Of a stretch of DNA of 23,050 bases, positions 1-12,285 are shown one piece after another; positions within the stretch are counted from its first letter, which is position 1, and every line of letters begins with the position of its first letter. Where the stretch lies: the IMG/VR virus record IMGVR_UViG_3300025913_000494, positions 1 through 23,050 of that record. One strand, given 5' to 3'. The DNA is from a virus. The translations under genes were made by a program, and so were the position numbers. A model generated the notes under the pieces. It was not told the origin of the DNA, made no database searches, and saw only the letters and a list, made by a program, of their open reading frames with translations.

Positions 1-2
1 TT

Positions 3-53
3 ACCTGCTACACGCTGATTATCAATCCCGTTTTGAAAGAGGGGGACAAGTAA
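3..53 (+). CDS. 3' end of an upstream virion gene (partial)
   Basis: The frame beginning at base 3 reads TCYTLIINPVLKEGDK and stops at a TAA directly abutting the ATG of the next gene. This zero-spacing junction matches the spacing between later genes in the structural block. The purine run GAGGGGGACAAG at its end doubles as the ribosome binding site of the next gene. Too little is present to assign a function. Confidence 0.5.
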   Translation, partial: TCYTLIINPVLKEGDK

Positions 54-1058
54 ATGGACGTGTACAACATGGGCGGAACTCCGGCAATGGGCAGAGAGGA
101 CAAGAGCAACCTTGAGGCCCGACTCGACAGAATTGAAAAGGTCGTTCCCTACCGCACAGGCGGCGGTCAGTATGCGCCGATGACGTTCGCGCCGATCATA
201 TCCAGCGGATTGATTGGCGGAAAGATCAATCTTTCCAGCGGGAACAGTATCGACTTTAAGGGCATCATGTCGCCCAATGTGGTTGATGGTCAGTTTGCAG
301 TGGCGTGTCCGTCTGATTCTTCTGCGGTTATTTATTGGGATGGCACAAACACCAGCAGAGTGATTCTTATTCGTCGTCCTGATTCGCAAGGGCAAGGATT
401 GAACGGTACGAGCACAACCGTACCAGGAAACAACATCACAATCACCGGACTGACTCCCGCAGTTAAGTATCAGGCACTTGCTTATTGGGTGCCGTTTAAT
501 GCTTGTGGAATAGGGTTTGCTCCGGGAACGGTGGGGACACCGCAGATTGCCTTCGCTTCAACCGATTCAGATACAACGGTTTTACAAGGGCAGGCCGCTC
601 AATCATTAGCAGGCAGAGAGCCTTTAGGAAACATTAGCTGGACTCAACCCACGGCAGGGGGAACAAGCGCAGCAGGCCCGCCAACTACTCCTCCCACTCG
701 CTCGCCGGGAACATGCGTGAGGCTTGGAACGCATATTGAACCCTTGGGAAGTTACAGGCCAAGTGAGATTAAAGAGTGCATTCATCCGCAAAGGGAGTGG
801 ATACACATTGAATCCAAACGTGGCTTAGTGCTTGAAGGAACTCCAGATCACATTCTGTATCACGCGGAAAAATGGAAGCTGCGCATGGATCAGTTTGCCA
901 AGGGCGATTATGCGATTACGAGATTCGGTGAAGACCAAATTACCGAGTGGTATCCATTCATCCGCGATTGCAGCAAAGTGCAGGTAAAGATGAAATTCGG
1001 CCATCTCTTCTGGGCCAATGGTTACTTGAGCCACAACATAAAACTTCCTTCCGACTAA
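54..1058 (+). CDS. Virion protein with FN3-like domain and C-terminal Hint (intein-like) domain
   Basis: A 334-residue protein in three parts. Residues 1-75 are a Gly-rich start with a short helix (about 18-30). Residues about 76-170 are a beta-rich fibronectin-III-like module, with SSAVIYWDG and ITGLTPAVKYQALAYW resembling strands C-F. After a Thr/Pro/Ser-rich linker (about 195-219), residues 221-328 look like a complete mini-Hint domain: Cys221 as the block A nucleophile, T263-P-D-H266 as the block B TxxH motif, GDYAI near 284, and a C-terminal GYLSHN ending in His327-Asn328. Only six residues (IKLPSD) follow the Asn, and the +1 residue is Ile rather than Cys/Ser/Thr. Autocleavage is therefore likelier than standard splicing. 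A GAGGGGG ribosome site sits about 8 bases upstream. The exact virion role (tail or decoration protein) is inferred from position and FN3 content. Confidence 0.75.
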   Translation: MDVYNMGGTPAMGREDKSNLEARLDRIEKVVPYRTGGGQYAPMTFAPIISSGLIGGKINLSSGNSIDFKGIMSPNVVDGQFAVACPSDSSAVIYWDGTNTSRVILIRRPDSQGQGLNGTSTTVPGNNITITGLTPAVKYQALAYWVPFNACGIGFAPGTVGTPQIAFASTDSDTTVLQGQAAQSLAGREPLGNISWTQPTAGGTSAAGPPTTPPTRSPGTCVRLGTHIEPLGSYRPSEIKECIHPQREWIHIESKRGLVLEGTPDHILYHAEKWKLRMDQFAKGDYAITRFGEDQITEWYPFIRDCSKVQVKMKFGHLFWANGYLSHNIKLPSD

Positions 1059-1468: not shown

Positions 1469-1921
1469 ATGGAACAACAAGTAATAGAGAGATTTTTGGA
1501 CAAGATTTCTCCAGAGCCAAATACGGGATGTTGGCTTTGGAATGCAGTGTTAACCGGAACAGGCTATGGAAACTTTATGGTTAACAGGTCTGTATATACA
1601 GCCCATCGCGCCTCGTTTCTGATTCACAAAGGCCCTATCCCTGACGGTATGCAGGTATGCCACAAGTGCGACGTTAGATGTTGCGTTAATCCCGATCACT
1701 TATTTTTGGGAACCTCTCAAGATAACGCGATTGACAAGTGCAACAAGGGGAGGCATCCCAATCAAACAAAAACTCATTGCAGGAATGGCCATGAGTTGCC
1801 TTCACAGCCAAATGTTACATGGGGCAAAAGAAGTTTTAGGTTGTGCCTTGTGTGTCGCCGCGAATCGCACAATCGAGCGAATCTCAACTACAGAATCAAG
1901 CAACGTGGAGGTGTGGCATGA
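1469..1921 (+). CDS. Freestanding HNH endonuclease (HNH_3-like)
   Basis: A 150-residue protein with the core AHRASFLIHKGPIPDGMQVCHKC followed by CCVNPDHLFLGTSQDN. This is the typical HNH_3 layout: an AHR helix, a C-H-x-C zinc turn near 64-67, the CCVNPDHL catalytic loop at 71-78, and a C-terminal Asn helix. A second cysteine cluster (HCRNGHEL near 103-110 and CLVC at 126-129) looks like the small zinc finger often attached to phage homing endonucleases. The start directly abuts the previous stop, and the stop overlaps the next ATG. It is a probable homing element inserted among virion genes; whether it still cleaves cannot be told. Confidence 0.88.
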   Translation: MEQQVIERFLDKISPEPNTGCWLWNAVLTGTGYGNFMVNRSVYTAHRASFLIHKGPIPDGMQVCHKCDVRCCVNPDHLFLGTSQDNAIDKCNKGRHPNQTKTHCRNGHELPSQPNVTWGKRSFRLCLVCRRESHNRANLNYRIKQRGGVA

Positions 1922-8046: not shown

Positions 8047-8707
8047 TTACCAAATTCCTTTCACGTAATCCGCGTATCGCCACTTTCTACCCATGATGTG
8101 ATCTGTCACAATTCCATCCTGAGTGCGGATCGTTCGTCGCTTGTCTCCGCGCTGGCCACTGCCCACCTGATTACGCCTGTCAGCCGCTTCGATTGCTTGC
8201 CTCTGTGATTTGTCACGCTCATATAGTCTGGCCGATAGGATGGCGAGAGCTGTATCCTTGTTCCGCTTCTGTGATCGCTCCGTTTCACAGCGCACGGTTA
8301 ATCCGGTTGGCCGATGCTTGAGAATGACAGCCGTTTCAACTTTGTTGACGTTCTGACCGCCTTTGCCTCCGCTACAAGTGGTTTTCCATTCCAGATCGTT
8401 TGGCGAGATGGAAAATTCAGAGGCTACAGGTTCCTCAAAAACTGCCACTGTCACGGTTGACGTGTGTACTCTGCCGCTGCGCTCCGTTGGCGGTACTCTC
8501 TGCCAGCGATGCCCACCAGATTCATTGCAGAACGTCTGCCATGCTCCCGCGCCAGAGATATGCACAACGGCAATCCCCGGTCGCTTATCGGCAATCTCGA
8601 AGCTAAAGACCCCTCCGCGCTGCCACTCGTGCGTAAATGGTTAATTGGTCAGACACCAGCAGTTTGGCATCATCGCCACCTTCAGCCGCTCTTATTTCGA
8701 TAATCAT
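8047..8707 (-). CDS. Phage class I peptide chain release factor (RF1-like), split by an apparent programmed +1 frameshift
   Basis: Frame 0 starts at the ATG at 8707 (MIIEIRAAEGGDDAKLLVSD...) and runs 34 codons to an in-frame TAG at 8605-8603. Reading +1 from there continues the protein exactly (SFEIADKRPGIAVVHISG) for 185 residues to 8047, giving 219 residues. Release-factor hallmarks: the EIRAxEGGDDA start of domain 2; SGGHRWQRVPPTERSGRVHT with the PxT tripeptide (72-74) typical of RF1 (UAA/UAG) and not the SPF of RF2; GGKGGQNVNKVETAV with the catalytic GGQ at 116-118; and the ERSQKRNK loop. Domain 1 is absent, so an RF3-type interaction is unlikely. It would hydrolyse peptidyl-tRNA on terminating or stalled ribosomes. 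The alternative is a pseudogene or a one-base assembly error. The position of the shift at a prfB-like signal argues against both. Confidence 0.85.
8603..8616 (-). promoter_or_regulatory. prfB-like +1 recoding signal with UAG
   Basis: On the minus strand the order is GGAGG (8616-8612), GGT (8611-8609), CTT (8608-8606), TAG (8605-8603), C. The bacterial prfB signal is an internal Shine-Dalgarno-like sequence, a 3-base spacer, CUU, then UGA followed by C. Here the anti-SD match is the full GGAGG, the spacer is 3 bases, CUU can slip to UUU, and the stop is UAG instead of UGA. The new frame begins with AGC (Ser), giving uninterrupted release-factor homology. Confidence 0.75.
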
Positions 8708-10911: not shown

Positions 10912-12285
10912 ATGCAGCATTCATCAGCATTGGCATGCCATTCGGCCCTCGATATTAAGAAAAAATTTACAATTAAACCTGCATTAAATGAGCACACACA
11001 GCGTTATAGTTACGCACACAAGATCGTAGAACGACCAAACCAGGTATCCAGCAAGCAACCGCCCGTAACTGCTATCGCTTCCTCGCGGCCCGAAAGTAAA
11101 ACTGTATTAAAGAACGGATCGAGCGCGGTTGATTTGGGCGCTAGCTCCCATGTCTCCTCACTCGACAATGGGACGCTATTGTGCGTCCAGCAGTCAGCAC
11201 CCCAACATTTAGACGTAGCGAAACAAAAGCAAAGTGCGTTAGAATTTGGGGCATTCAGAAGCGATTTCGACCTCAGGGCCGAGCAAGCGAGGAACGCCAC
11301 TATGCAGACTCCACAGGAGTTGCAGGAAAAACTTTTTTCCGTTGCCGCGAAAGAATGGCTAGAAGAAGAGGAAACCTACCATCCCGACAAGCCCAAAACC
11401 CTGAAGTCCTACGGCGATTACGTGAAGCGGCTGGAAGTGCTGTTTACCATGCGGCTGAATGAAATTCACATAGGCCACATCAAGGAATATCAACGGGAAA
11501 TGAAAAAGAAGTACCATCCGCGCTCCGTCAATAACGATATAGGCGTTTTGTCCCGTGTGCTCCGTAAGGCCGAGCTGTGGGAGCCAATCAGACCACTTTA
11601 CCGTCCCCTGCCTGTGCCGAAATGGACACCGCCCCGCGTTTTGACCGAAAAAGAGGAGCAGCATCTATTTGAGGTCGCGGCCCTGAATCATTCGTACTCC
11701 CTTGCCTATTGGGTGGCCAGTTTGACGAACAACACAACCGCATCTGGCAGTGAGCTGCGCGGACTCAAGATCAAGAACATTGATATGGAATCCATACCGC
11801 CGATTATGTATGTGCCTTCGGACAAGGTAAAGAACGAATACCGTGCCAGGGTGATTCCGCTAAACGAGCGCGGAGTTAAGCAGATGGAGCGCATTCTTGA
11901 GAGGTCGCGGGAATGCGGTTCCGTCCTGCCTGAGCACTACGTTTTCCCACTCCGTACCCGTTCAGGGAAGCACCCTGTTTACGATCCAACCAAGCCAGCC
12001 AGCGAGTCTTTTCTGCGGAAGCAATGGGACAAGATGCGCAAGGAAGCGGGATTCCCATGGCTCAGACCGCATGACATGAGACACCAGATCATCACAAAGC
12101 TTTTGGAAAATGGCGTTCCTGAGCAAACCGTGATGTCGATTGCCGGACATGTCAGCCGAGAGATGTTGGAGCACTATTCGCATCAGCGGGTCGATGCCAA
12201 GTTTCGAGCACTAGACCTAATCAATCCGGACAAGAAAAAACCCGTAGCCACTGCCAAGGGTAAGGGTGTGAAAAATGCGGGATAA
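10912..12285 (+). CDS. int: Tyrosine-family integrase
   Basis: A 457-residue site-specific recombinase for integration at attB and, with a helper, excision. Residues about 135-225 resemble the SAM-like core-binding domain (AAKEWLEEEE, NEIHIGHIKEYQREM, SVNNDIGVLSRVLRKA). The catalytic domain holds Arg283 (SELRGLKIKN), a Lys near 305-307 in the beta hairpin, His387 and Arg390 (HDMRHQ), His413 (AGH) and the nucleophile Tyr422 (LEHYSHQR). Residues 1-130 are unusually long and low in recognisable features; an internal Met131 would give a more typical length. The ATG at 10912 has AAAGGA 11 bases upstream. The putative attP lies just downstream. Confidence 0.95.
   Translation: MQHSSALACHSALDIKKKFTIKPALNEHTQRYSYAHKIVERPNQVSSKQPPVTAIASSRPESKTVLKNGSSAVDLGASSHVSSLDNGTLLCVQQSAPQHLDVAKQKQSALEFGAFRSDFDLRAEQARNATMQTPQELQEKLFSVAAKEWLEEEETYHPDKPKTLKSYGDYVKRLEVLFTMRLNEIHIGHIKEYQREMKKKYHPRSVNNDIGVLSRVLRKAELWEPIRPLYRPLPVPKWTPPRVLTEKEEQHLFEVAALNHSYSLAYWVASLTNNTTASGSELRGLKIKNIDMESIPPIMYVPSDKVKNEYRARVIPLNERGVKQMERILERSRECGSVLPEHYVFPLRTRSGKHPVYDPTKPASESFLRKQWDKMRKEAGFPWLRPHDMRHQIITKLLENGVPEQTVMSIAGHVSREMLEHYSHQRVDAKFRALDLINPDKKKPVATAKGKGVKNAG

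Follow-up and report, generated by a model that had tools for sequence, protein, structure and literature searches.

Hint domains are known from the splicing of inteins, the release of hedgehog proteins and the processing of secreted bacterial proteins. In phages, the open literature that we searched describes them only as inteins within enzymes, among them terminase, helicase and reductase (PMC3556154, PMC5259590, PMC5526547, PMC8790156). Among bacterial intein-like (BIL) domains, the A-type is recognized by a C-terminal His-Asn, the lack of a nucleophile at position +1 and an activity that consists mostly of cleavage (PMC4031507; PMC7664689), while the BIL2 domain of Tetrahymena BUBL1 has been reported to splice through an isopeptide bond with the epsilon-amine of a Lys (PMC8616854). 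We found no C-terminal Hint domain on a phage tail protein in the open literature; subscription journals fell mostly outside this scope and may contain an earlier description. In public databases, automatic annotation already labels some phage proteins as Hint.

We analyzed a window of 23,050 bases, IMG/VR virus record IMGVR_UViG_3300025913_000494, from an uncultured phage. The product of its first complete gene is, in our judgment, quite probably a precursor belonging to the virion module, whose last 114 residues resemble an A-type BIL Hint and are predicted to free the N-terminal part through a thioester at Cys221.

The gene and its Hint domain

This gene (54-1058, plus strand, as are all its parts given below) starts directly after the stop codon of the upstream gene, of which the window holds the 3' end (1-53, plus strand; TCYTLIINPVLKEGDK*) and which, by homology and synteny, corresponds to a protein of about 600 aa preceding the Hint gene in relatives. 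Homologues and conserved synteny divide the 334-aa product into a probable virion part at the N-terminus, a linker rich in Gly and Pro, the Hint domain and a tail of six residues. The N-terminal part (residues 1-190; 54-623) probably contains a beta domain resembling fibronectin type III, as suggested by a weak fn3 match in one relative (L026, E 0.016). It gave no trusted model, and the structure prediction of the whole protein, made with five sequences, was poor (pLDDT 36.7). The linker (residues 199-220; 648-713) is of low complexity; across the family, Gly and Pro make up 54% of the 20 residues preceding the first Cys of the domain (Cys1) versus 16% of the remaining N-terminal part.

The Hint domain itself runs from Cys221 to Asn328 (714-1037), 108 residues lacking an endonuclease insert, and was recognized by profile, AlphaFold model and fold matches. 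Cys221 (714-716) belongs to block A and is the predicted nucleophile of the N-S acyl shift. Block B is TPDH (residues 263-266; 840-851), with a nearly invariant Thr263 and an invariant His266; the block F His is His317 (1002-1004) in GHLFWANG, and block G is His327-Asn328 (1032-1037), the predicted site of Asn cyclisation. The tail IKLPSD (1038-1055) places Ile at +1 and, in the family alignment, a near-invariant Lys330 at +2. A preliminary description made from the letters alone had already given the complete domain with these limits and no endonuclease insert, together with Cys221, TPDH with His266, a GDYAI motif, the HN at 327-328, Ile at +1 and six residues to the end, and all of it proved exact; the Lys at +2 was absent from it.

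Taken alone, the window protein hit no Pfam or NCBIfam family in single-sequence searches and no notable PDB chain with phmmer, and its PHROG match (E 0.06-0.3) was discarded as spurious; the Hint call therefore rests on the family. We collected a set of 18 members, homologues from virus contigs found by search patterns that contained nothing past the Asn, with identities to the window protein of 25-63% across the 18 relatives. The whole protein has only 16 invariant columns in this set, and Cys221, His266, His317, His327 and Asn328 are among them, so that the motifs first read from a single sequence stand above chance.

When compared with PDB, the family profile of the domain matched the NrdJ-1 intein (3e-8), gp41-1 (4e-7), Tetrahymena BIL2 (2e-5) and the Clostridium thermocellum BIL domain (2.7e-5). 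The AlphaFold model of residues 216-334 (pLDDT 89.6, pTM 0.82) displays the all-beta horseshoe fold, which is characteristic of the Hint superfamily, as are the block A Cys and the block B TxxH. Its similarity to mini-inteins, BIL domains and hedgehog reached Z 13-15 across 105-117 residues (14.8 for mini-inteins, 14.1 for both gp41-1 and Tetrahymena BIL2, 13.3 for the C. thermocellum BIL and 13.1 for hedgehog). The first Foldseek match was BUBL1 BIL2, and among viral models the matches were chiefly intein-bearing terminases and phage proteins annotated as Hint. Thus, the profile search and structure prediction that had been proposed as checks recovered solved inteins and a Hint fold, and they back, together with conservation, the assignment to Hint, the comparison with BIL domains and Cys221 as the putative cut site. 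In Pfam, relatives match PT-HINT and Intein_splicing below the curated cut-off, which is a detection aid and no biological criterion, and the window protein matches neither.

The N-terminal end of the domain is diverged. Most family members have 103-110 residues from Cys to Asn, and two have 126. A short segment of 45 residues separates the Cys from block B, and sequence similarity to solved inteins sets in past it: the alignment with other Hints is poor over the first ~24 residues, the HMM match starts at about position 25, and the confidence of the model is lowest (74-80) there and in the tail. We considered whether this might be the smallest Hint on record and make no such claim, having found no literature source on the point.

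Comparison with BIL domains, hedgehog and inteins

In the 18 members as well as in 56 clusters of C-terminal Hint proteins described below, the +1 residue is I, L, F, V, M, N, K or Y. Judged from its sequence, the window domain is no splicing intein, because this position is never occupied by Cys, Ser or Thr. The terminal His-Asn is invariant in the 18 members, in which 4-10 residues follow the Asn. In every sequence feature compared, the domain agrees with the A-type BIL signature, and at the level of sequence it is best placed among the BIL-type Hint domains, as a C-terminal variant from phages.

The A-type BIL of C. thermocellum (PDB 2lwy) shares the Hint fold, the N-terminal Cys, the TxxH, the His-Asn and the lack of Cys, Ser or Thr at +1, and A-type BILs are likewise located in variable proteins. 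On the other hand, 2lwy has about 135 residues versus 108 for the window Hint, and the window-type domain differs in ending its protein, with 2-12 residues after it, in carrying Lys at +2 and in residing on virion-type proteins of phages. BUBL1 BIL2 (PDB 6y75, 6tmm), the closest in fold, is a Hint whose N-terminal partner is reportedly passed on to the side chain of a Lys; unlike the phage domain, it lies in a eukaryotic polyubiquitin-type gene and is followed by Met-Gln, whereas the phage family has a hydrophobic residue and Lys. The hedgehog Hog domain (PDB 1at0) is also a C-terminal Hint that releases the part before it through a Cys thioester, as is predicted for the phage protein. However, Hog performs the first acyl shift only and carries a sterol-recognition region after the Hint, for which the six residues past Asn328 leave no place, and the phage Hint has an invariant His-Asn and a short tail.

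The class 1 phage mini-inteins (gp41-1, NrdJ-1, PhiW-14 TerL) have the same fold and catalytic motifs, but they splice between conserved exteins with Ser, Thr or Cys at +1; in the window, +1 is Ile and the protein ends six residues on, leaving neither a C-extein domain nor a +1 nucleophile. The polymorphic toxin family PT-HINT (PF07591) gave weak Pfam matches in ten relatives (best 1e-4), all of those shown missing the family cut-off, and it differs in that no toxin domain follows the window-type Hint, the ORF ending at 1058.

Gain, loss and distribution of the domain

In all tested related contigs except L035, the counterpart of the gene at 54-1058 is immediately preceded by the gene for the same protein of about 600 aa, and in L050 this neighbor matches the PHROG for head closure Hc3 (8e-6). 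In two relatives (L033 and L034) the neighbors and the N-terminal part are kept and the Hint is absent; all frames of the strand were free of a Hint signature further downstream. In L035, where the synteny was not seen, the N-terminal part is likewise Hint-free and terminates with a Gly-rich stretch followed by eight residues. Therefore, the N-terminal part can work alone. At the same locus in L016 and L018-L021, by contrast, the Hint is attached to an N-terminal part that is unrelated. The domain is thus modular, gained and lost between homologues.

In L033 and L034, whose downstream gene is Hint-free, the upstream protein of about 600 aa (L033:2341-4950 and L034:1705-4947) contains a large in-frame insertion. 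We considered an intein and rejected it, as the insert resembles Ig-type repeats.

A scan of IMG/VR with the pattern NG-x-L-S-H-N-x-K, in which a stop codon was not required, matched 59 stretches, some of them near-identical. The His-Asn lies 2-12 residues before a stop in 55 of the 59, nearly all of which have Hint features upstream. From all sources, we obtained 62 C-terminal Hint ORFs (56 clusters at 90% identity), whose N-terminal parts form 13 groups with no blast links between groups. About a dozen groups of phage protein, unrelated to one another, share the layout: Gly/Pro-rich linker, Cys1, Hint, His-Asn and a tail of 2-12 residues. Several N-terminal parts belong to the central tail fibre J (L128 8e-100, L111 5e-15, L064 2.5e-14) or to a tail protein family (L108 8e-32, L118 5e-30), and in a profile comparison the J-type domains are connected with those of the window type (E 1.6e-10 over 54 columns, blocks B to G).

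The preliminary description had called the gene product a virion protein. From its neighbor of about 600 aa and from the presence of the same module on J-type tail proteins, its incorporation into the virion is likely. A PHROG match (15127, "head protein") was rejected as evidence on the host protein, since it covers the Hint part only. The same description had expected an uncommon maturation route for a phage tail or decoration protein; on the contrary, the C-terminal Hint architecture is widespread among uncultured phages.

Scans of bacterial and archaeal genomes found no relative of the window-type domain and a single weak match, on a pilin-like protein of an Omnitrophota bin. That protein (L068, JAKLEP010000001.1) has a methylation-type signal at its N-terminus and a C-terminal Hint ending in VVHN plus 16 residues. 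No relative was found on plasmids. Among cultured phages, the sole match of the window domain was the TerL intein of Delftia phage PhiW-14 (26% identity, E 0.1), and no J-type C-terminal Hint was found; one uncultured faecal phage record (MT835519) carries a C-terminal Hint of the J-type class. The domain in Klebsiella phage phiKp_30 turned out to be an ordinary intein. In PhiW-14, the TerL gene (L036, NC_013697, 41360-44671) contains the intein-like domain, unannotated, at the Walker A site, and in the record the reading frame is broken inside the domain.

Two contigs were seen to encode pairs of C-terminal Hint proteins. On IMGVR_UViG_3300037418_000482 (G002), two different ones, L161 (362 aa) and L129 (817 aa), end in SHN-V-K followed by three or four residues. 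On IMGVR_UViG_3300029787_000021 (G028), L159 and L105 both have a Hint closed by GILTHNIK and the stop, with only Ile-Lys past the Asn, and one of the two Hints is preceded by long Thr-Pro-Ser repeats.

Predicted release and the lysine at +2

The release that we propose would start with the folding of the Hint, which would turn the Thr220-Cys221 peptide bond into a thioester. Normal extein transfer would then be impossible because +1 has no Cys, Ser or Thr. Water or an amine would resolve the thioester, freeing the N-terminal part with a flexible Gly/Pro-rich end, and cyclisation of Asn328 would separately free the short tail; the amine thereby exposed on the tail may re-ligate to the N-terminal part as in the known minor A-type reaction. 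This scheme builds on the Hint fold, the invariant catalytic residues, the missing +1 nucleophile and the modularity, which are observed, and from these we infer the cleavage, its timing in assembly and the resolution of the thioester. Considering that the N-terminal end is diverged (the 45-residue spacing, the late HMM match and the low model confidence), the window Hint could be slow or dependent on a trigger.

One candidate for an amine that would resolve the thioester is the lysine at +2. It is present in 16 of the 18 members, a family fetched by patterns that did not include this residue, while +1 and +3 vary; its presence in 54 of the 56 clusters is a biased count, as most were found by a pattern including the Lys. 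Lys at +2 was found again in second Hint copies retrieved with a profile cut at the Asn (L161 VISHNVK, L160 LVHNAK, L159 THNIK) and in L069 (LSHNIK). Asn cyclisation is not known to depend on a Lys at +2. We therefore hypothesize, as an attractive extension of thioester release, that Lys330 could serve as an isopeptide acceptor.

As an explanation of the locus in place of simple release, we consider it rather unlikely that Lys330, or a Lys of a neighboring subunit, attacks the Cys221 thioester and joins the virion part to its side chain, which would crosslink subunits of the virion or exchange one C-terminal tail for another. The conservation of Lys in the unbiased set against a variable +1 and +3, its recurrence in the distant Hints L161, L160, L159 and L069, and tails consisting of just Ile-Lys all point in this direction, as does the best Foldseek match, BIL2, reported to use Lys isopeptide chemistry (PMC8616854). 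However, the solved BIL2 chains read M-Q at +1/+2, so that the parallel is one of chemistry and not of position, and the Lys may do no more than hold the tail in place or adjust the active site. In its broadest form, tailed phages would share a widespread C-terminal module (linker, Cys, Hint, His-Asn, hydrophobic residue, Lys and short tail) that uses the +2 Lys for isopeptide bonds, crosslinking or covalently tailoring tail and decoration proteins with no other enzyme involved, and this we regard as improbable.

Binding can be a function of C-terminal domains that are exposed on tail tips. The window Hint, with its small size and diverged N-terminal end, might be inactive and retained at the tip in a structural or receptor-facing role. 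We find this quite improbable, since the residues that never vary are the catalytic ones at both junctions, kept even in distant phages, and a structural role is not expected to preserve both junctions together with a low-complexity Gly/Pro-rich linker. A further alternative, a selfish mini-intein in decay close to where a gene ends, might be suggested by the intein-type fold and motifs and by a free-standing HNH endonuclease gene 0.4 kb downstream (1469-1921). It is very hard to believe, because inteins interrupt active sites that are conserved and give back an intact host protein, whereas this domain sits at the extreme C-terminus, never has C, S or T at +1 and recurs in the same layout, catalytic residues conserved, on many unrelated proteins.

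A recurrent non-splicing C-terminal Hint on virion proteins would represent a self-contained step of virion maturation or conjugation. The +2 Lys makes such a step easy to test with point mutants, and a Hint of 103-110 residues that ends its protein is a potential compact tool for protein ligation.

Two other genes of the window are worth recording. A homing-type endonuclease gene (HNH_3, 1469-1921, plus strand) follows a small ORF (1061-1468) and precedes the next structural gene; it was not seen at the same place in the relatives L002, L003 and L005 and is therefore probably a free-standing insertion. On the minus strand, positions 8047-8565 encode a truncated peptide chain release factor, of which the C-terminal part is present with an RF-1 domain (4e-30) and the end of PCRF, near an integrase gene (10912-12285), and the phage perhaps integrates in the release-factor gene of its host, carrying the 3' end of that gene.
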